A DNA stretch of 64,000 nucleotides from Arthrobacter wenxiniae (GTDB lineage: Bacteria; Actinomycetota; Actinomycetes; Actinomycetales; Micrococcaceae). The stretch spans positions 1 through 64,000 of the forward strand of contig NZ_JAAMFM010000021.1 of NCBI RefSeq assembly GCF_013376105.1, in the 5' to 3' direction. The position numbers were made by a program, and so were the translations under genes. Of this stretch, positions 19,749 through 62,282 are shown piece after piece (the first letter of the stretch is position 1; each line of letters opens with the position of its first letter). Below the pieces are notes generated by a model, which saw only the letters and a list, made by a program, of their open reading frames with translations, had not been told where the DNA came from and searched no databases.

Positions 19749-20655
19749 TAGCCCGGGGTTTTCATGGTGATGGCTGCTCGGGGGCGTGTTTGAGCCGCGA
19801 AAGGTGCTTCTTTGCTGGGAAATAGTGTTGTTGACGCACTGTTATACCGGCTGAAAGAAGCACCTTTCTGATGTCCAAGATTGCCGGAGTTTTCCCCTCC
19901 CCTCCCTTCCCGTCGCTACGTCGGGTCAGTCGCTGATCTCCCATGCCGGGTTGAACGTAGTGACCTCGTTCATCGACGCGCTCGGGTTTCGTGGTTTGTG
20001 TGAGGACCGGCCGAGCCCCTCCACCCCGGTGCGCAGGCAACGCTCTTGGATGCGGGCGGGCACCGGGTGACGGCGTTTTTGAGGAACTTCCCGCGCTGGC
20101 ACGGGCCCACCCTCGATGCCCGCCACCGTGCCCGGGGCCGCTGCGAGAACCGGATCAAGACGTTGAAGAACACCGGGCTGGGCAAGCTGCCCTTCTTCGA
20201 CTTCAACGCCAACCAGGCCTGGGCAAACATCGCGACCCTGGCCATGAATCTCATCTCCTGGCTGCAGCTGGCCATCCTGCCCAACGGCCACGGCGCACGC
20301 GGCTGGGACGTGAAACGGTGGCGCTACCGGCTCTTCGCGACCGCCGGGAAACTCATCACCCGCGCCCGCCGCACCTGGCTCCTCCTCCCCGAGATGTCCC
20401 CTGAAGCATCCACGGCCGCCACGCTCCTGGCCGGCATCGCCCAGCTCAAGCACCGCCGAAAACGCCTGCCCGTGCCAGCCTGAAAACCCAGGCCCGGCCC
20501 CTCCAACCACCAGAACCCCCCCGGACCAGTGGAAACCGACGCCCACCCAGCAACAACAGGCCCACCAAACACGCCCAAAAACAAGAAAACGACCCAACCG
20601 GAAATCAAATCCCAGCCAGGCAGGCCACCCAACCACCATGAAAAATCCGGGCTAA
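19748..20655 (+). mobile_element. IS1380-family element, internally deleted, both ends kept
   Basis: TTAGCCCGG followed by GGTTTTCATGGTGATGG at the left end (19748-19773) matches the inverted right end CCACCATGAAAAATCCGG then GCTAA (20635-20655). Between them lies a 0.9-kb body instead of the usual 1.6-1.7 kb. An internal 14-bp inverted repeat (19800-19813 with 19854-19867) precedes the transposase start. No target duplication is obvious. Confidence 0.8.
19871..20483 (+). pseudogene. IS1380 transposase, internal deletion and frameshift
   Basis: The gene begins MSKIAGVFPS at ATG 19871. It shifts frame, continues ISHAGLNVVTSFIDALGFRG and LCEDR, then jumps near 20040 to the C-terminal third (RCENRIKTLKNTGLGKLPFF, AWANIATLAMNLISWLQL) and ends at 20483. 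The catalytic DDE centre is missing. The C-terminal part alone (20046-20483) is open but cannot act as a transposase. Confidence 0.85.
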
Positions 20656-21463: not shown

Positions 21464-22687
21464 TCAGGGCCGCGCGCGGGGCAAAAGGACGTTGACTACG
21501 GCCCCGCTCCCATGCAGCCGGGGCTCCACCACGATCTTCCCATTGTGCCGTGCCACGATCTCGGCCACCAGGGCGAGGCCAAGTCCATAGTGCCTAACGG
21601 CGCCGGACTTGCCGGCGGGCGGGCGCGTCGACGCGAAGCGTTCAAAGACCCTCGTCTCGGTCCCGGCCGCGAAGCCGGGGCCGTCGTCGATGACGCGTAT
21701 GGCTGCGTCCCGGCCCTGGACGGTAACCTCGACCTCCACGCTCGTTGCGGCGTGGTCAAGGGCGTTGGCGATCAGTGCGGTGAACACGCGCCGAAGAGCC
21801 ACCTCCGAGCCCCGGACATTGACCGGGCCCGGCGATCCGGTACGTGTCAACCGGATGAGGCGCTGCTGTGCCTCCGGTTCGGACAGTGCTGCGGCACTGT
21901 CCGCGATGGTGACAATGTCCTGGAGGGTGTGACCCATGGCTTCTCGGGGATCCGCGGACAGCAGCAGGTCGTCCAGGATCCCGGTAAGCATCCTGGCATC
22001 ATCCACAAGCCCTCCCACACCGGACGCCACGTCACCGCCGGAGAGTCCCGTTCCGCTGCCCTGGAGTTTGCGGCGCAGTAGCTGGGCGCGGGTGCTCAAC
22101 AGGGTCAGCGGGGTGCGCAGTTCATGGCTGGCGTCGGCAACAAACCGGCGCTGCAGGGCCAGGCTCTCCGCCATCGGCCGCATGGCCCGCCGGGCTATCC
22201 AGACGGACAGGCCCGCCGCCAATCCTGCCGCGACCACGGTGGCTATCGAGAGGGCGAGCGTCAGGCGGTTCAGTTCCTCCTCGCGCTCGCGCCGGTCGAC
22301 GGCCACCTGGACGACTCTCCCGTTCCGGTATGTCGTCAAAATGGTGTAGGACTTCCCATCGATCCTGGTGTCAAGCAGTTCGTCCTGCCGGGAAGCGGAG
22401 ACCTGGGTGATCGCCGCGGCATCGGGCAGACCGGGAGGCGCGGCAGGGGACAGCAGCAACTGTCCGTGAGCGCTGATGGCGACGAAGACCCCCAACGGCG
22501 CGTCGGAGGGCGAATCGACCAGGGCCGCGCCCGCCAGGGTCTTGGTGGTCGATTCATGGACGCCCGCGGCCACGATCGAGTAGATGAGGGCGCCGACCAG
22601 GACAAACAGCACCACGATCAGCGCGGTGAACTGCAGCGCAAGCCACAACACCGCGCGCCTGAGCTCGGTCTGGTCCCGCGGGTTCAA
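21464..22687 (-). CDS. Two-component sensor histidine kinase
   Basis: A 407-residue membrane kinase. It has two membrane helices (about residues 13-41 and 140-165) flanking an extracytoplasmic sensor, then the phosphoacceptor box FVADASHELRTPL with His188, and an ATPase domain with N, G1 (DDGPGF) and G2 (HYGLGLALV) boxes. I place the start at TTG 22687, which overlaps the stop of the response-regulator tail as TTGA; a longer frame to 22735 would run through that tail. The IS1182 element now separates it from its regulator and probably from its promoter. Confidence 0.85.
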   Translation of the reverse strand: MNPRDQTELRRAVLWLALQFTALIVVLFVLVGALIYSIVAAGVHESTTKTLAGAALVDSPSDAPLGVFVAISAHGQLLLSPAAPPGLPDAAAITQVSASRQDELLDTRIDGKSYTILTTYRNGRVVQVAVDRREREEELNRLTLALSIATVVAAGLAAGLSVWIARRAMRPMAESLALQRRFVADASHELRTPLTLLSTRAQLLRRKLQGSGTGLSGGDVASGVGGLVDDARMLTGILDDLLLSADPREAMGHTLQDIVTIADSAAALSEPEAQQRLIRLTRTGSPGPVNVRGSEVALRRVFTALIANALDHAATSVEVEVTVQGRDAAIRVIDDGPGFAAGTETRVFERFASTRPPAGKSGAVRHYGLGLALVAEIVARHNGKIVVEPRLHGSGAVVNVLLPRARP

Positions 22688-22746
22688 GCCAGCGGCCCCA
22701 GCCGGTACCCGACGCCGCGGACCGTGACGACGCATGACCGCCCTAG
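22684..22746 (-). pseudogene. Detached 3' end of the response-regulator gene
   Basis: In the frame leading into TGA 22684-22686 the minus strand reads LGRSCVVTVRGVGYRLGPLA, the C-terminal wing of an OmpR/PhoB-type DNA-binding domain. It completes the regulator at 24696-25376 if the intervening IS1182 element and one CTAG are removed. Confidence 0.9.
22743..22746. repeat. IS1182 target-site duplication, left copy (CTAG)
   Basis: CTAG here and at 24767-24770 directly flank the element; removing one copy plus the IS restores the regulator reading frame. Confidence 0.85.
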
Positions 22747-24766
22747 GTGGCTGGTGTCGAACGGGCTATCTGGTGGTGTCATTGCTGACTGGGTCCGTTT
22801 TTAAGACGGCGTGAGGCTGTTGGTGGTTGCCTGATTGGCGTGTCGGAAGGCATTTTTTGGGGTCCGTTGCGGGCGCTTGGGGGCTGGCAGGGCAGCGCCG
22901 GTGACCGTAGTGGCCCGGTCGGCCCTCGCCCCGGCTCTCATGCCGGGACCATGGCCGATCGGACCGGTCCGGAGGGGGTGATGTGGCTGATTTTGAGCAC
23001 GCCAAGCCGGGCGATGTTCACGGCTGCGGCCAACAGGGAGAAATCGGCGTTGACTTTGGTGCGGCCACGGACCCTCGCCCGCCGTCCGCCGTGCTTGCGC
23101 CGCATCAGATGCCCGATCTTGCGTTCGACCTTGGGACGGGTGGCCCGGTACTCGTCCCGCCATGCCGGGTCCCTCTGTGTTTCCCGTGCCCTGACAAGTT
23201 CTGCTTCATACCGGCTGATGCTGATCGTGCGCCCATCCCTGGAGGCCGTGCATTGGGCGGCCAGCGGACACGCCGTGCAGGCGGCACCGAAGGCGGCCTT
23301 CCCGCCGCCGCCCTTGGCCGGGCGGATCGGCACGGTCACGTTCGCCGGGCAGCTCACCATGCTGGCAGCGGTGTCGATAATGAAGCGGTCCTTGGCGAAG
23401 CGTCCGCCCGGTGCCACCGGCGGCTGAACCTTCACCATCACGGTCGCGCCGGCTTTTTCCAGATCCACCAGGAACGCCCCGGCCCCGTACGCGGCATCCC
23501 CATACACAGCCAACGGCCCGCCATCAACGTCCTGTCCGCCTCCGGCACCGCCAGCCTCCAGCCCTTCATTGGCCCCGGTGGCCAGGGTGTTGTGGCCTTC
23601 ACCGGTGTCTTCGAGAAGGTCCTTGTCAGTGTCCTTACCAGCGGATTCCTCCGGGGCAACCGGGGAGGCTGGGGAGGCCGGGGTGCCCAGTTCATCGGCG
23701 AGCAGCCCGGCGGCTGGTTCCGCATCGCCGGTGTTCCCGGCGGTGACGGTGGTCGCGGTGATGATCTCGGAGTCCGGGTCGATGGCCAGGTGGCCCTTGT
23801 ATCCGTCGAAGCCGCGCGCCGCGGTCTTGTGCCCGTGCCGGGCTTCCGGATCGACGGTGGAAATTACACGATCCTTCGCGACGCGCCGGGCGATGTGGAA
23901 CACCCCGTCCACGCAATCCAGGTCCTGCCCGAGAAGGGTCGCCAGCAGTTCCCCCGCCTGGGCCACGCCCTTCCCGAACTCCTGGCCCTCCAGCACGGCC
24001 AGGGCAGCGTGTCCGTCCTTGGCCAGCCCGTCCACTATCTGCTTGCGGGCCGCCGCGTCGTCGTAATCGCAGACCGGTTTCCCGGCCGTTGCGTAGTCAT
24101 CATCGCGTGTCAGCACGGCACGCAGCAACGCCTCCAGTTCCGGACCGGCCACCCGCAGCAGGCCCCGGATGCCGGAACGGAGCAGTGTTACGGTGTCCAT
24201 CGTGGCGACCGCGTCATACAACGGGGTCGAATCCAGCACCCGCTTGCGCCCCACCAACCCCGCTGCCTTCGCCGCGTCCAGGGCCACCTGGAAAATTCGT
24301 TCCGGAGAATCCGAGGCGGCCAGGCGGGCACGCATGTCCACCAGAACGGTGTGCACGAACCCCGGGTAGTCAAAGGCCAGCCCGCCGGCGGAGTACTTCC
24401 ACCGCGCGTCGAAGGAGAACCGGTCCACCGCCTCACGGTCCGAACAGCCCTCGATGCGCTGCAGGACCATCACGACAGCCACGATCATCGGCGGCACACT
24501 GCGCCGGCCGACGTCGGTAAACAAGTCCGCGAACATCTCATCCGGGAACAGGTTGAAGCACTCCCGATGCAGCACCGCATAGATCGAGTCCTCAGCGACC
24601 CGGCCATGGCAATAGCCGACCGTGCTGCGCAGCAAGTCACCCTGCGTCGGCGCCATCCCTAACGTCATCGGCTACTCCTGAATCCCGGGAATCACTTACC
24701 TAATTTTCCCAAAGGGCACGCCCGGACCAGGTAGCGCCACACCACCAAATGAAAAACACCACCCAC
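22747..24766 (-). mobile_element. Complete IS1182-family insertion sequence (2020 bp)
   Basis: The element is bounded by CTAG duplications. Its ends are imperfect inverted repeats: GTGGCTGGTGT at the left and GTGGGTGGTGT at the right (read inward), each followed after a short gap by TGGTGGTGT. It carries one full-length transposase. The intact gene and clean duplications suggest a fairly recent insertion. Confidence 0.9.
22938..24668 (-). CDS. IS1182-family transposase
   Basis: A 576-residue DDE transposase. The N-terminal domain (VLHRECFNLFPDEMFADLF, RRSVPPMIVAVVMVLQ, EGCSDREAVDRFSFDARWKY) is typical of IS1182. Catalytic-region motifs are LDSTPLYDAVATMD, AVYGDAAYG and KVERKIGHLMRR for the Asp, Asp and Glu. 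A Cys-containing segment (CTACPLAAQCTASRDGR) precedes the last block as in IS1182/IS5-like relatives. The frame is uninterrupted, so the element may still be active. A long antisense frame over it is a codon-bias shadow. Confidence 0.95.
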   Translation of the reverse strand: MTLGMAPTQGDLLRSTVGYCHGRVAEDSIYAVLHRECFNLFPDEMFADLFTDVGRRSVPPMIVAVVMVLQRIEGCSDREAVDRFSFDARWKYSAGGLAFDYPGFVHTVLVDMRARLAASDSPERIFQVALDAAKAAGLVGRKRVLDSTPLYDAVATMDTVTLLRSGIRGLLRVAGPELEALLRAVLTRDDDYATAGKPVCDYDDAAARKQIVDGLAKDGHAALAVLEGQEFGKGVAQAGELLATLLGQDLDCVDGVFHIARRVAKDRVISTVDPEARHGHKTAARGFDGYKGHLAIDPDSEIITATTVTAGNTGDAEPAAGLLADELGTPASPASPVAPEESAGKDTDKDLLEDTGEGHNTLATGANEGLEAGGAGGGQDVDGGPLAVYGDAAYGAGAFLVDLEKAGATVMVKVQPPVAPGGRFAKDRFIIDTAASMVSCPANVTVPIRPAKGGGGKAAFGAACTACPLAAQCTASRDGRTISISRYEAELVRARETQRDPAWRDEYRATRPKVERKIGHLMRRKHGGRRARVRGRTKVNADFSLLAAAVNIARLGVLKISHITPSGPVRSAMVPA

Positions 24767-25376
24767 CTAGTTTCTTGCGCAGATAGTGCACGTAGGTGTC
24801 CACCACGCCCTCGTCGTCGGCCTCGGCGAAGACGCTGTCCACCAGCGCCTGCCGGATGAAGGTTTGCCGCGGGCTGCGGGCCAGGTACGCCAACAGCCCG
24901 CATTCCCGCTCGGAAAGAACGACGACGGCTCCCCCGTCCAGTGTCACGGTCCGGTTCGCGCTCTCCAGAAGGCCGCCGGGGACCCGCACGGCGTCCGAGA
25001 CGGCCGCATGCCGGCGCACCAGGGACCTGAGCCGCGCCAGCAGCTCGTCAATGTCAAAGGGCTTGCCGAGGTAGTCCTCGGCGCCCCTGTCCAGGCCCTC
25101 GACCCGGTCGGCGGGATTGCTCAGCGCCGACAGGATCAACGCCGGGGCCGTGACCCCCTTGGCGCGCAGCCGTCCCAGGAGGTCCAGACCGTCCAGGGCC
25201 GGCAGCCCCCGGTCCAGCAGGAGGATGTCAAAGCGGCGGGTCAGCCCTTCATGCAGCGCGCGCTGGCCGTCATGGACGGCCACCACCTCGTAGCCCTCAC
25301 CTTCGAGTATTTCCTGCAACATTGACGCCAGGGCTGCGTCGTCCTCAACCACCAGGACGGAGAGTGTGTCCGACAT
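24696..25376 (-). CDS. OmpR/PhoB-type response regulator, C-terminus replaced by IS1182 sequence
   Basis: The receiver domain is complete: acidic pair at residues 11-13, phosphoacceptor Asp55 in ILLLDRGLPALDG, Thr/Ser region and Lys in LGKPFDIDELLARL. The winged-helix domain follows (LSERECGLLAYLARSPRQTF, VDTYVHYLRKKLG). At about residue 203 the frame enters the IS, so the wing VVTVRGVGYRLG is replaced by about 23 foreign residues (GWCFSFGGVALPGPG and onward). DNA binding is probably impaired or lost. The native gene continued directly into the histidine kinase. Confidence 0.9.
   Translation of the reverse strand: MSDTLSVLVVEDDAALASMLQEILEGEGYEVVAVHDGQRALHEGLTRRFDILLLDRGLPALDGLDLLGRLRAKGVTAPALILSALSNPADRVEGLDRGAEDYLGKPFDIDELLARLRSLVRRHAAVSDAVRVPGGLLESANRTVTLDGGAVVVLSERECGLLAYLARSPRQTFIRQALVDSVFAEADDEGVVDTYVHYLRKKLGGWCFSFGGVALPGPGVPFGKIR
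24767..24770. repeat. IS1182 target-site duplication, right copy (CTAG)
   Basis: Pairs with 22743-22746. Confidence 0.85.
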
Positions 25377-25525
25377 GATCTGAAGTATAGGCGCCCTGGA
25401 CGGGCTCCAGGTTCCGCGGCGCCGTCCAAGAATCCTCTAAGAATGAACGCATAGCGTCGGGGGCAGGAGGCGCCGTGCTTGCGGCCCGGCGCCCGACATC
25501 ATCCACAGCGCAAGGAGCCCATCGA

Positions 25526-26044
25526 ATGCCCCACTCGTCAAGCCCGGCCAACGACCAGGCCACGGCCCGTCCAACGCCCGTCCAGCGCGCGGGCGGCCGC
25601 TTCGGCCTCGAACGCCCCCGGCGAGGACGCCAGCCCGGCCCGGGCAGGTTCCTCGTGGCCGCAGTCGTCGCCATTCTCGGCTCGCTGGCCGCCTGCGCGG
25701 CGATCGTGGCGGCCGGCACCGCCATCTTCCCGGCAACGGCCGGCTACGAGCATTTCCGGTTCCTGGACTACGCGAAGTTGACGGTACCGGGGGTGGCCCT
25801 GGCCTCCCTGGCCTGGCTGGCCGTCACCCTGTACACGCCGCGGGCACGGCTGCTCTTTGGCTGGCTCACCGTCGTCGTCACGGTGGGCGGCCTGGCCCCT
25901 GACCTCTGGATCCTGTACCGCGGGGCCCCGCCCGCCGCCGTGCTGATCCTGGTCGTCATGCACCTGGCCTTGGCTGCGGTCACCTACCCGGCCCTGGTGC
26001 TCATTGCGCCGCAAAGGCTGGAGCCGCGCGCACCGCGCAGTTGA
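25526..26044 (+). CDS. DUF6069-type membrane protein
   Basis: A 172-residue protein with a basic, Pro-rich N-terminus of about 45 residues and four membrane helices (FLVAAVVAILGSLAACAAIV; VPGVALASLAWLAVTL; LFGWLTVVVTVGGL; VLILVVMHLALAAVTYPAL). It looks like the DUF6069 family; its role is unknown. ATG 25526 has AAGGAG eight bases upstream. It is divergent from the response regulator and convergent with apbE. Confidence 0.8.
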   Translation: MPHSSSPANDQATARPTPVQRAGGRFGLERPRRGRQPGPGRFLVAAVVAILGSLAACAAIVAAGTAIFPATAGYEHFRFLDYAKLTVPGVALASLAWLAVTLYTPRARLLFGWLTVVVTVGGLAPDLWILYRGAPPAAVLILVVMHLALAAVTYPALVLIAPQRLEPRAPRS

Positions 26045-26070: not shown

Positions 26071-26823
26071 TCACCTTGGCGCCGGCGCCAGCCAGCGCCG
26101 AAGTTCTCCGGCATCGGTGACGGTGCCATCCGCCAACTGGGCAAGGACACTGCAGTCGTAGCGTTCAGCAGCCCAGCGCGGGCCGTCGGGGCCCATCGCG
26201 AACACCGTCGTCGCGAGCACGTCCGCGACGGTCAAGTCGGCGGCGACCACGGAAACGCTTGCGAACGCGCGGGCGGGGCGGCCCGTGCGGCCGTCGACGA
26301 TGTGCAGTCCCCGCTCGTACGTGGCGGATGTGGCAACGGCCATGTCGCGGAGCGCGAGCACCGCCATCATCCGTTGCGGAGACTCCGGGGAGCGGATGCC
26401 AACATTCCAGGCCGTGCCGGGCCCGCTGCCTCCGGCGGCCACGACGTCTCCGCCGGCGTTGAGAACGAAATTCGCCACCCCCAGCACCCTGAGCCGCTGG
26501 GCCGCCCGTTGGGTGGCCCAGCCCTTCACGATGCCGTTCAGGTCCCAACGGCCGGGTGCGGCCTGCAAGGAAAAGACGCCGCCGGAGACCGCGGCGAACC
26601 GTGCCGCCAGTTCGTGCACCTCCAGGAACGCCGGCCCGGTCGTCTCCAGGGTCAGCTCGCCGCGGTTGAGCCGGCTGAGCTGGCTGCCGGGAAGGTACGG
26701 ACTGAAAATCGCATCCGCCTCATGCAACAGTGCGAAGGCTTCCTTGGCCGCGGCGTGATGGTCCCCCGCGTCGCGGATGTCCAGGGACATGGGGATGCCC
26801 ATGACGGTGTCCAGAAACCGCAT
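26071..26823 (-). CDS. apbE: FAD:protein FMN transferase
   Basis: A 250-residue ApbE-family flavin transferase, which attaches FMN through a phosphoester to a Thr of partner proteins. It shows the family start MRFLDTVMGIPMSLDI, the DLNGIVKGWATQRAAQRL block, NAGGDVVAAG, SPESPQRMMAVLALRDMAVATS and a late T(A/V)ADVLATTVFAMG. It has no signal peptide and is shorter than secreted ApbEs. Its ATG overlaps the stop of the FMN-binding protein gene as TGATG, so the two are coupled and that protein is the obvious substrate. Confidence 0.93.
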   Translation of the reverse strand: MRFLDTVMGIPMSLDIRDAGDHHAAAKEAFALLHEADAIFSPYLPGSQLSRLNRGELTLETTGPAFLEVHELAARFAAVSGGVFSLQAAPGRWDLNGIVKGWATQRAAQRLRVLGVANFVLNAGGDVVAAGGSGPGTAWNVGIRSPESPQRMMAVLALRDMAVATSATYERGLHIVDGRTGRPARAFASVSVVAADLTVADVLATTVFAMGPDGPRWAAERYDCSVLAQLADGTVTDAGELRRWLAPAPR

Positions 26824-27326
26824 CAGGGCAGCTTGTCGATCGCCGACTGGACCGACTGCAAGTAGCCGGTGGAGGTGTACGTGCCGCCGCTGACGGTGTC
26901 GACCTTGGCCGACTGCGAGGTGAGGACCTCCTGCAGGAGGGTGGGGGGCACCACCTGCGCGACCTGCTGGTCGTAGTTTCCGGCGTCGGGAACCTGGAGT
27001 ACGTTCACGCCGGTGATCTTCCTGCCGGCGAAGGAGACCGCCACCTGCACGTTGCCGTACGGCGTACTCTCGGGATCGCCCGTGATGGTCCTGACCGACG
27101 GGCCCGTGCCGGAGCCGGCCGCCCGGGGACCACTGGGCGCCGCGGACTGTGTGGAGGTTCCGGGAGCGGCGCCCCCAGCGGTCGTCGGCTTGGCTGTCGC
27201 CGTCGGGAGCGAGCTGGCGAGGGCCGAGTGCTCCTGCGCCGAATACAACCGCAGGCCGAATGTCGCCCCCAAGACGATGAAAATCGCCAGGAAAAGGGCC
27301 GTGCCCTTCCACTTCCGTCCGTTCAT
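26823..27326 (-). CDS. FMN-binding domain protein, membrane-anchored
   Basis: A 167-residue protein with an N-terminal membrane anchor (TALFLAIFIVLGATFGLRL), a Ser/Thr/Gly/Pro linker, and an extracytoplasmic FMN_bind domain. DTVSGGTYTSTGY near the C-terminus is the flavinylation motif, whose Thr would receive FMN from the adjacent ApbE. ATG 27326 lies 2 bp after the stop of the reductase gene (an overlapping TTG at 27332 is possible). It likely carries electrons outside the membrane. Confidence 0.9.
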   Translation of the reverse strand: MNGRKWKGTALFLAIFIVLGATFGLRLYSAQEHSALASSLPTATAKPTTAGGAAPGTSTQSAAPSGPRAAGSGTGPSVRTITGDPESTPYGNVQVAVSFAGRKITGVNVLQVPDAGNYDQQVAQVVPPTLLQEVLTSQSAKVDTVSGGTYTSTGYLQSVQSAIDKLP

Positions 27327-27328
27327 AA

Positions 27329-28690
27329 TCAATGTCCCATGCTCAGTATTTCGCGGTGGATCATGCGTTTGGAGACGCCAAGCCGTGACAGTGATTCATC
27401 CACGGTGTGCGCCATCCCCAGCGGGCCGCAGACGTAGACCTCCCGCTCCGAAATGTCCCTGACCAGGCGTCCGAGCGGTCGCGCCGCCAGTGGATCGTGG
27501 CCCAGCTCCGCACGGCTTCCCACCACGGTGTGCAAGACCAGGGGGCGAAGCGCGCGCAGTTCCCGTTCCAGCGCAGGGCGCTCCCTGCTGCTGCGGTAAA
27601 CCATCACCACGTTCCGTCCTTCAGCGACCAGGCTCTCGGCCAGGACGCGCATGGGGCCGATGCCGGCGCCGCCGGCGATCAGCAGGACCTTCCGGCGCCG
27701 GCTTGCGTCGGGCGTGAAATGGCCGAAGGGGCCTTCGGCCAGGACCGCCGTGCCGGGCTTCAAGTGGCGCATGCGGCTGCTGTGGTCGCCCAGCGCCCCG
27801 ACAGTGATTCTCATCAGGCCGTCGGCGGGCAGCCGGGACAGGGAGAACGGATGCGCCGTCAGCATGTGGCCCACGCTCATGAAACGGAACATCATGAACT
27901 GGCCGGCCCGCACGCCCAGCTCATCCAGATGCGGTCCCGCCAGCCAGATGCTGCTGAGTCCATTGCCTTCATCCACAACGTGGGAGACCACCATGCGGTG
28001 CTTCCACGCGGCGGCGGCCGGCAGAATGAACCGCCAGGTGAGCACTGCGGAGGCCGTGGCGAGGTAGAGCACTATCCACGCCGCGCGGTTGAGGGGGTTG
28101 TTGACGAAATGGACCCCCGCGCTCAGTTCGTGAAAAAACGTCAGGAAGATCGCCACATAGGCAGTGACATGCAGCCAGTACCAGGTCTCATAGGAAATCT
28201 TTCCTCGCGGGATGCGGGCGCTGCTGATCCCAAGGACGAGAAACAGCAGCGTGCCGATCAGGGCGGTGAGCATGTCGGGGTAGGAGGTCAGGACGGCAGC
28301 CGTCGCTCCCCACGGCGTGCCGGACGTCAGCAGCTGGACACCGAGGACCATGAGCAGGACGTGGCTGAGGATCAGGAAAAGGACGGTGCTGCCGAGCGTC
28401 CGGTGCCAGCTGACCAAACGATCCATGCCGACGGCGCGCTCGAACCAGGGAACACGGGCGATCAGCAGCACCTGGGCGCAGACAAGAAAGGCGCCTGCCA
28501 TTCCACTGAGTTCGCCCAGGGAAGTTGCTGTGGACGCCGGAGTGAAGGTCAGCGACGACGGGGTGGCGAACCACCACGCGGCCAGGACGCCGATGATGCC
28601 GGCAACGAGCAGGGCGCGCAGCAGCAGCCGCCCGGACCGGGCGAAGGCGCGTTGTCGCCGCACGGGGGCGGGAGCGGTCATGGATGCCAT
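27329..28690 (-). CDS. Ferredoxin/ferric reductase-like flavohaem membrane oxidoreductase
   Basis: A 453-residue protein. The N-terminal half has six membrane helices with a ferric-reductase-like transmembrane domain (HRTLGSTVLFLILSH; WLHVTAYVAIFLTFFHE supply haem-ligand His candidates). The C-terminal half is a ferredoxin-NADP reductase module: FAD-binding HPFSLS, NAD-binding LIAGGAGIGPMR and YVCGPLGM. With the FMN-binding protein and ApbE it forms an operon for electron transfer from cytoplasmic NAD(P)H across the membrane. The electron acceptor is unknown. MASMTAP at 28690 is the chosen start. Confidence 0.92.
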   Translation of the reverse strand: MASMTAPAPVRRQRAFARSGRLLLRALLVAGIIGVLAAWWFATPSSLTFTPASTATSLGELSGMAGAFLVCAQVLLIARVPWFERAVGMDRLVSWHRTLGSTVLFLILSHVLLMVLGVQLLTSGTPWGATAAVLTSYPDMLTALIGTLLFLVLGISSARIPRGKISYETWYWLHVTAYVAIFLTFFHELSAGVHFVNNPLNRAAWIVLYLATASAVLTWRFILPAAAAWKHRMVVSHVVDEGNGLSSIWLAGPHLDELGVRAGQFMMFRFMSVGHMLTAHPFSLSRLPADGLMRITVGALGDHSSRMRHLKPGTAVLAEGPFGHFTPDASRRRKVLLIAGGAGIGPMRVLAESLVAEGRNVVMVYRSSRERPALERELRALRPLVLHTVVGSRAELGHDPLAARPLGRLVRDISEREVYVCGPLGMAHTVDESLSRLGVSKRMIHREILSMGH

Positions 28691-28828
28691 GCCTGCAACG
28701 CTACCCACCCGATCTTAGAGCTTTCTTAGGCGGCGTCCCCCTCACCGAAGCACCCGCGCCTTGGCGGATCCATCCCACCCACTACCGTGAGGGCGTGGTG
28801 CAAGCACATGTGAGAGAGAAGCGGAGAC

Positions 28829-29367: not shown

Positions 29368-30036
29368 TCAAACCGCGATGCACTTGAGCAATTCAATGGG
29401 CTGGGCGATATGCTCGGAAGCCGACCGGAGCTTCGGCAGCACCACGCTCCAAATACGCGTGGCCAGGTTGTCGCACCGGATCAGGAAGTCATCCAGGTGC
29501 CGGCTTCCGGTGGCCTCGTAGTTCATGCGGTGAACCCGCATGTCCAGGTGCACAAGATTGCGCTGCGACGGCAAGCGCGGCAGGAGCTGGGCCACTTTCG
29601 CGCCAAAAACCGCAGTTCCCGCCGAAGCGTCGGTGCGGCCGTGCGCGCGCACGTCCAGGTACGTCGCATCCAGGAACAGGTACGGGAACCAGGTGTGATC
29701 CAGGCGCCGGCCCAGGAACTCATGCACGGCCTCGTCAAGCTCAGAGCAGATCCGCGAGACCGTGGACCGGGAGATGCCGGTGTCGTTGCCCAGTGCACGC
29801 ACCAGCTGGTCGACCTTGCGGGTGGCGAGCCGCTTGGCCCGCGTGCCGTTGCGCCGGGTGGCCCGCTCCGGGGTGCGCTCGTAACGTCCGGCACCGATCT
29901 TCGCGGCCACCTCCGCATTGACCAGGTCCTGCATGCCCGCCTGCAGCATCCGCCGGAACACGTCCTCATGGGCGAGGTCCGGCTCCGCGAGCAGATCCGA
30001 GATCAGGGAAGTCAAGGCAGAATGATTATGGCTCAT
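29368..30036 (-). pseudogene. IS256-family transposase fragment with a foreign C-terminus
   Basis: From ATG 30036, MSHNHSALTSLISDLLAEPD, DVFRRMLQAGMQDLVNAEVA and YERTPERATRRNGTRAKRLA match IS256 N-termini. About 35 residues are missing before KVDQLVRALGNDTGISRSTV; SRICSELDEAVHEFLGRRLD and FPYLFLDATYLDVRAHGRTD follow, up to the first catalytic Asp. The frame then runs into about 65 residues (LDMRVHRMNYEATGSRHLDD...) that are not IS256. The second half of the DDE domain is gone, so it is inactive. Confidence 0.85.
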
Positions 30037-30088
30037 CGTGGGATCGCTTCCTAGGCTTCTTGGCGGAAACAAAATCGGCACCCACAGT

Positions 30089-30143
30089 GGCCCTCTCACG
30101 ACCGAGACCCCCAGGAATTGACACCACACGAAGGAACGCAGCC
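30089..30143. repeat. IS256 element end, copy 1
   Basis: GGCCCTCTCACG, CAGGAATTGACACCACAC and GACGCAGCC-type bases form the outer end of the IS256 remnant. A near-identical copy lies at 32917-32973. The end abuts a GntR-family gene remnant. Confidence 0.75.
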
Positions 30144-60656: not shown

Positions 60657-62282
60657 GTGACCGCCGCGCATGATGTCTACTACGGCAATCCCGCAACCGA
60701 CGATGACATTGACCTCGTCGAGGAAACGCCGCCGTCCTCCGCCGCCCGCTTCAGGGACAGGTCCGACGTCGTCCGTCACCGTGGCAGGTACGTCATGGTC
60801 AACCGCGACCGCACGCCGAACCAGGCCATGGTGGAAGACCTGCTGTTCCTCCGCGGCGCCCTCGAGGCTGCCGGGCTGAACTACCTGCTGGTGCGCGGCA
60901 ACGACGAACGCCCGGTGATCGCGATCGACTGGAGAGACCGCGCCGCGCTGCGCAAGGCCCTCGTTGAGGCATGCGCCGACGAACCGTTTTATGCGATGAC
61001 CGTCGACGCCCGGAAGAAGTCGGCGCTGCTGGTGGCTGACGGGACACTGGCCAGGAACCGCAAGTCCCGGATCCTGCGCCTGTACCGGCCACGGTGGGAG
61101 CCCGACGGCGGGCTGGGCTACGGCGCGTCACTGGGGGTGCAGATCGAGCTGTGGGGCTTCGAGGGCGAGCAACTGGTGCTGCCGGTCGAGAACTCGCTGA
61201 CCCGCCGGACGCTGCTGGCCCAGGACGCGGTGCGCGGCACGGTCGAAAGGTACGGGCACGTCTGGCCGACCATTGAGAACATGTTCGCCGACCACGCCTC
61301 CGACATCGGCTTCGACATCGACCTGGTCTTCTCCTGGGTCGACGGCAGCTCCCCCGAATACCTTGCCGCCAGGCGCGCCCGGATGGTGGGTGTGGTGGTG
61401 GGCGAGGGTGACGACCATGAGGCCCGGTTCCGCCAGATCGACGAGCTCAAGTATGCGCTGCGCTCCGTCTACACCTTTGCGCCGTGGATCCGGCGGATCT
61501 TCATCGCCACGGACTCCCCCACCCCGTCCTGGCTGGCCGAGCACCCGTCGGTGACGGTGGTGCGCAGCGAGGAATTCTTCGCCGACCCCTCCGCGCTGCC
61601 CACCCACAACTCACAGGCCGTGGAGTGCCAGCTGCACCACATCGAGGGCCTGTCGGAACACTTCCTGTACTCCAATGACGACATGTTCTTCGGCCGGCCC
61701 GTCAGCCCGGACATGTTCTTCACCCCCGGCGGGATCACGAAGTTCATCGAGGCGGAGACGAGGATCGGCCTGGGCGGGAACGACGCCGAGCGCAGCGGCT
61801 TCGAAAACGCCGCCCGCGTGAACCGGAAACTGTTGTGGGACCGGTTCGGGCGGATCACCACCCGCCACCTGGAACATGCCGCCGCGCCGCTGCGCCGCAG
61901 CATCATGGCGGAGATGGAGCGCGAGTTCCCCACCGAATTCCGTGACACGGCCGCCAGCACCTTCCGGGCGGCGGAGAACATCTCCGTTACCAACTCCCTG
62001 TACCACTACTACGGGCTGCTCACGGGCCGGGCCACCGTGCAAACCGGCGCCAAGGTGCGTTACATCGACACGACGGCCCGGGCGGGCTTGAACTACCTGC
62101 CCAAACTGCTCGCCAAACGCAACATGGACTTTTTCTGCCTCAACGACGGCAGCTTTCCCGAGGTGCCCGCCGCGGAACGCGCCGAAGTAGTGACGGACTT
62201 CCTGCAGAAGTATTTCCCGATCACGGCCCCTTGGGAAACGCAGCCCGCCACCGGCGACCACCGCCACGATGGGCAAGGCTAG
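60657..62282 (+). CDS. Stealth-family sugar-phosphotransferase
   Basis: A 541-residue protein with all four Stealth regions: CR1 ([20 protein letters not shown]), CR2 ([20 protein letters not shown] with RRIFIATDS), CR3 ([34 protein letters not shown]) and CR4 ([12 protein letters not shown]). Stealth proteins transfer hexose-1-phosphate in capsule or wall polymers; the N-terminal 200 residues are a typical actinobacterial extension. It starts at GTG 60657. The 4-bp CTAG overlap of its stop with the convergent metallophosphoesterase is notable. Confidence 0.92.

Follow-up and report, generated by a model that had tools for sequence, protein, structure and literature searches.

Organization of the locus

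In the window (the whole 64,000-base stretch of DNA analyzed here), a regulator, a transposase, and a kinase are carried alike on the minus strand. The regulator is a truncated OmpR/PhoB-type response regulator (24696..25376), in which 204 native residues are followed by 22 residues encoded by an IS1182-family element. The element occupies 22743..24770 (minus strand), i.e., 2,028 bp with both of its CTAG copies and 2,020 bp without them, and it contains the gene of the IS1182 family transposase (22938..24668). Beyond it lie the stranded last 18 regulator codons with the stop (22684..22742, minus strand), which were recognized by joining the flanks and by the tails found in relatives. The sensor histidine kinase gene follows (21464..22687, minus strand); its TTG start overlaps the old regulator stop, and its product carries the HisKA (38.9 bits) and HATPase_c (68.2 bits) domains of a HisKA sensor kinase.

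A gene encoding a DUF6069 protein (25475..26044, plus strand; PF19545, 31.1 bits with a cut-off of 27.2) is divergent from the regulator. The initial annotation placed a flavin redox operon next to the two-component system, and three of its products were identified by domain. These were an ApbE-family protein (flavin transferase; 26071..26910, minus strand, start approximate; PF02424, 153.8 bits), an FMN-binding domain protein (26823..27332, minus strand; PF04205, the only one found in this genome), and a ferric-reductase-like (MsrQ-like) membrane protein with an NAD-binding domain (27329..28708, minus strand; PF01794 and PF00175). The PF01794 protein, the FMN-binding protein, and ApbE thus occur together, as in an MsrQ-like flavinylation cluster. 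Elsewhere in the window, we observed a fragment of another transposase at 20046-20483 (positions 320-434 of 435 in Pfam DDE_Tnp_1_4), an apparent Mutator-type transposase fragment beyond the flavin genes at 29368-30129 (Transposase_mut, in two stretches), and a Stealth-type protein with all four conserved regions at 60657-62282.

Structure of the IS1182-family element

The CTAG copies are located at 22743-22746 and 24767-24770 with 2,020 bp between them, and the 576-aa ORF scored 291.8 bits against the NCBIfam model NF033551 'IS1182 family transposase' (cut-off 270); coordinates and score agree with the 2020-bp IS1182 element between two CTAGs that had been proposed. The Pfam domains of the transposase are DUF772, DDE_Tnp_1, and DDE_Tnp_1_6. 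It had been described as intact, and its frame is indeed full-length, suggesting that the transposase may be active. The element ends form a 15-base inverted repeat that is 93% complementary (CTAGGTGGCTGGTGT / ACACCACCCACCTAG). End comparison placed the left terminal inverted repeat with its CTAG at 22743..22757 (plus strand) and the right one at 24756..24770 (minus strand), and the end motif is common to related elements. According to a passage in PMC5678879, which relies on Siguier et al., the IS1182 family includes members that target palindromic sequences; here, the palindrome CTAG stands at both ends.

Reconstruction of the interrupted gene pair

When the flanks were joined with one CTAG, a 222-residue OmpR/PhoB regulator ending in KKLGRSCVVTVRGVGYRLGPLA (= GRSCVVTVRGVGYRLGPLA) was obtained, whereas the regulator tail was lost with zero or two CTAG. 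The single CTAG is made up of a leucine codon (CTA) plus the G that opens the following glycine codon. The TGA stop of the joined regulator overlaps the kinase TTG by 4 bases. Both the in-frame joining after removal of the element and one CTAG and the overlap of the regulator stop with the kinase start had been predicted in the initial annotation, and both were borne out. The residue counts required adjustment: the regulator lost 18 residues, or the 20 originally given if the shared LG is counted, and gained 22 rather than about 23.

We infer the empty site from other species. The comparison comprised 84 loci, namely the best 80 of 110 from a search of named genomes and 4 more from the genus, and the nearest named genomes among the matches listed were those of Arthrobacter. 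A tail of 18-24 residues followed the same position in 81/84 loci; it measured exactly 20 residues in 59/84, which is the length of the joined tail counted from the leucine on. A kinase-length frame with the 4-base overlap was present in 73/84, and the other 11 were distant sequences, had starts elsewhere, or contained broken genes. The expected C-terminus and the uninterrupted pair were therefore both found in relatives; a separated arrangement without an IS was looked for as well, and the uninterrupted pair was found instead. In the 80 named loci (the best of 110), the window transposase had no match at E 1e-5. The 84 loci are not independent, as they contain 83 distinct regulator stretches and as L077, L103, and L117 are alike in at least 4,595 of 4,600 bases. 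At the sequence level, these comparisons demonstrate a precise insertion, with in-frame joining, into a gene pair that is uninterrupted in relatives.

Several observations on the related loci may be added. L077, L103, and L117 are named as a Propionibacteriales MAG, Arthrobacter koreensis, and Rarobacter faecitabidus, respectively, suggesting possible contamination or mislabelling. In one Arthrobacter gandavensis strain (L132:5001-6246), the regulator and kinase have internal gaps, while another strain (L095) is intact; in Arthrobacter sp. H16F315 (L065:5648-6855), the kinase lies in two frames. Sequencing error is possible in both of these apparently broken systems. Within the genus, regulator (E 1e-60) and kinase (E 1e-80) matches occurred in the same 8/23 genomes, including that of the window.

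Predicted effect of the insertion on the regulator

The present regulator product comprises 226 residues, of which 204 are native (shared LG counted) and 22 are derived from the element. Its receiver domain (PF00072) scored 90.8 bits, and D12, D13, D55, and K105, which we take to be the receiver active-site residues, were invariant across 18 regulator sequences; the regulator thus has a receiver domain of the OmpR/PhoB type, its acidic residues and lysine being conserved. The Pfam Trans_reg_C profile was covered from 3 to 58 of 77 positions in the present product and from 3 to 77 of 77 in the joined form, i.e., the C-terminal winged helix is complete only after joining. In an AlphaFold model of the truncated regulator (18 aligned sequences), the helix at 191-203 was kept, and residues 209-226 fell below pLDDT 50 with no strand and no C-terminal hairpin. 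The control, an intact relative (17 aligned sequences), formed two strands (208-211 and 215-218), and the block means over residues 201-220 were 92 and 91. Overall confidence was moderate (mean pLDDT 71.9 for the truncated regulator and 78.5 for the intact relative; pTM 0.52 and 0.49, respectively). The profile, which ends at 58 of 77, and the model, from which the hairpin is absent, are consistent with the earlier claim that the DNA-binding wing is lost. They indicate that the regulator has very likely lost DNA binding. We also considered the idea that the 22 element-encoded residues mimic the wing; it was rejected because the Trans_reg_C match ends at 58 of 77 and the pLDDT of the tail is near 30.

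CTAG as the probable target of related elements

CTAG is strongly avoided in the window (1-64000): 21 occurrences were seen, including both edge copies, compared with approximately 64 expected from trinucleotides and 207 expected from base composition. This scarcity and the tail length that the joined regulator shares with 59/84 related loci argue against a chance arrangement at the window element. CTAG was found directly outside the repeat (at least 10 of 16 bases matching) at both ends in 20/27 further IS1182 loci, which were taken from the genome of the window, other genomes, and plasmids and are not independent, several being from one genome. Since most of these related elements are bounded by CTAG on both sides, it is probably the target of this IS group. 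No qualifying CTAG pair was found in L148, L149, L154, L158, and L159, several of which lie near contig ends; in L163, the repeat is offset by one base. The last of the seven loci without such a pair, the plasmid element L179, has CTAG on the left and GTAG before the right repeat and is a real exception. In L177, two transposase genes lie within the CTAG pair, separated by a third CTAG. Flank searches returned only its own record for L177 and partial matches for L179. In a boundary test of all 256 tetramers, CTAG ranked first (19/28 loci), followed by the overlapping TAGG (18/28). This test is weak by itself because common GC-rich tetramers reach 14/28 (GCCG), and the direct reading of the ends carries the CTAG claim. 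The duplicated unit may be the whole CTAG or its central TA.

In the consulted parts of PMC5678879, PMC8370563, and PMC3189936, CTAG is not stated as the target of an IS1182 member. CTAG and IS1182 both occur in PMC8370563, in unrelated tables. The part of PMC3189936 consulted describes the Pseudomonas miniature element MITEPsy1, possibly derived from ISPsy2, as duplicating CTAG or YTAA, and it does not mention IS1182.

Other relatives of the element were also observed. Three genomes of another genus (L137, L138, and L139) share one identical CTAG-preceded end like that of the window element. A 343-bp element with CTAG-bounded ends in G018 (L050:3970-4312, contig C22) retains only a remnant of the transposase start; it is MITE-like and derives from this IS group by internal deletion. 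In the same genome, L016:1501-1785 (contig C86) matches bases 4-281 of the window element, with its outer end lacking CTAG. No relative of the element was found in phages at E 1e-30.

Possible preference for stop codons

Three of five elements (C23, which is the second copy in the genome of the window, and the copies in G004 and G133) are situated at a TAG closing an open frame of 177 codons or more, unlike the window copy and the short G018 derivative. There is support for such a frame being a gene in the case of C23 only, the upstream part of which matches many genomes of the genus. At least 100 open codons preceded the TAG in 12/19 targets and in 142/384 background CTAG sites (Fisher p 0.029); the C23 copy is not among the 19 targets, as it lies on a stop but did not pass the boundary test. 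This preference is only a hint because the background sites belong to different genomes and because many open frames in GC-rich DNA do not represent genes. We speculate, with considerable doubt, that the actinobacterial branch of IS1182 targets CTAG almost strictly and that, wherever the element has landed on a TAG stop, duplication of the target restores this stop. If so, the branch would tend to settle harmlessly at gene ends in genomes in which CTAG is rare, and the insertion in the window, at a CTA-G inside a frame, would be a damaging exception.

Age of the insertion

The genome contains only one other long copy of the element, which is 81% identical, and a third match that is a 105-base piece. 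As the other long copy is only 81% identical, the window element was not recently derived from it. We compared substitution rates among the window and six relatives, for which dS values are near saturation. To the nearest relative, dN and dS were 0.200 and 1.07 for the kinase (0.234 and 1.05 for the intact pair L054-L055) and 0.103 and 1.03 for the regulator (0.135 and 1.55 for L054-L055). There is no sign of decay, the frames being intact and dN ordinary; therefore, the insertion looks young relative to the split of these species. A recent insertion, although undated, would fit these values.

Interpretation and alternatives

We consider it very probable that an IS1182-family element transposed into a CTAG inside the OmpR/PhoB regulator gene and left one CTAG at each of its ends. 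The truncated regulator would keep its receiver domain and recognition helix without the C-terminal hairpin (wing); without it, the protein would be expected to be unstable or to fail in DNA binding. The overlap of stop and start that coupled kinase translation to that of the regulator would be gone, and the kinase may still be produced from read-through transcripts without a working partner. The intact flavin electron-transfer genes would then lie outside the control of this system. Flavin genes near the system suggest a functional link between the two: at least one was found in 46/80 named loci (best 80 of 110) and all three in 37/80, in several arrangements, and these counts are lower bounds because some stretches end at contig ends. 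Arthrobacter sp. SDTb3-6 (L054) is one relative in which the intact pair adjoins the flavin genes. In the genus, FMN_bind was present in 3/8 genomes with the system and 2/15 without it, which was not significant (p 0.30). Overall, the event is real and precise yet ordinary, an IS appearing to have inactivated a response regulator. Support for the insertion itself is good, and the consequences for the regulator, kinase, and flavin genes are inferred from it.

An error of assembly, by which the element was wrongly joined into the regulator, would be conceivable in a draft genome of 88 contigs. However, the element is located within a 74,604-base contig, the CTAG copies match, and the junction is frame-exact; moreover, repeat-driven misassembly is unlikely because the only other long copy is 81% identical, leaving the element unique at its own identity. 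We therefore regard such an artefact as highly improbable. A different question is whether CTAG was duplicated at all. The element might own the CTAG at both ends and replace four target bases, as proposed for IS1272, which a passage in PMC5678879 reports to replace a stem-loop without duplicating its target. In agreement with this, CTAG was found at the regulator codon in 0/76 loci (those of the 84 with at least 53% identity and a full match), where the tetramers were CTCG (39), CTGG (23), TTGG (8), and others (6). At the C23 site, the homologue in G006 reads CCAAGG without a gap at the junction, compared with CCTAGG at the occupied site (the match starts 15 bases before CTAG), and the G009 homologue, which terminates in TGA, is gapped at the junction. 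However, exactly four bases would have to be swapped at the regulator and, provided that the G006 alignment is correct, at C23 as well. In addition, the left flank of the Rhodococcus M8-35 element ends in CTAG in 5/5 other Rhodococcus plasmids without the element there, chosen from 9 other records as the matches that reach the junction (the remaining four stop short). The sequence after CTAG differs in these five plasmids, so they do not represent the same locus; their CTAG without the element nevertheless indicates that a target can hold CTAG beforehand. Replacement is thus quite unlikely in our view. Under the duplication model, the CTA codon must have been acquired by this lineage prior to the insertion, since CTAG is absent from all 76 loci.

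The insertion may also have rewired the system rather than destroyed it, with read-through and a new start keeping the kinase expressed and acting on another regulator. The new start could be the ATG at 22735, which is in frame for the kinase and from which its ORF runs, or translation could be coupled through a 32-codon frame whose ATG lies within the element and which runs into the old regulator tail, ending at its stop. The reading frame of the kinase is undamaged and shows no faster evolution, and a crude consensus scan found no terminator-like site between transposase and kinase; therefore, the kinase may still be expressed. At E 1e-15, matches to eight other regulators of this kind were obtained in the genome. 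However, these are distant, the best being 45% identical, and the same kind of crude scan found no promoter-like site in the element. We judge rewiring to be unlikely. Under the preferred reading of inactivation by insertion, loss of the whole two-component system is plausible, with the kinase frame still intact.

At this locus, a response regulator has been cleanly broken by a natural event, with the earlier gene readable to the base and the adjoining flavin genes, which concern extracytosolic electron transfer, intact. The broken locus offers a ready comparison for what this uncharacterized two-component system controls. CTAG at both ends of most related elements examined would make it easier to spot insertion sites and to predict empty ones.

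Comparison with known systems

The nearest solved chain to the regulator is that of the OmpR/PhoB regulator 1KGS (1kgs_A, 'DNA binding response regulator D'; match at E 4e-33). The regulator resembles this family in its receiver domain and, once joined, in its full Trans_reg_C domain; the present product differs in lacking the last part of the winged helix. The flavin genes resemble the MsrQ-like flavinylation gene clusters of Actinobacteria defined in section 10 of PMC8238504, in that a PF01794 protein with PF00175, an FMN-binding protein, and ApbE lie side by side. However, that section names no two-component system, whereas one adjoins the cluster here. The element is like other members of the IS1182 family (NF033551) in having a transposase above the curated cut-off and terminal inverted repeats. 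It differs from the family member IS1272 as reported in PMC5678879: instead of stem-loop replacement, CTAG is found at both ends, and exactly one copy is required to restore the gene.
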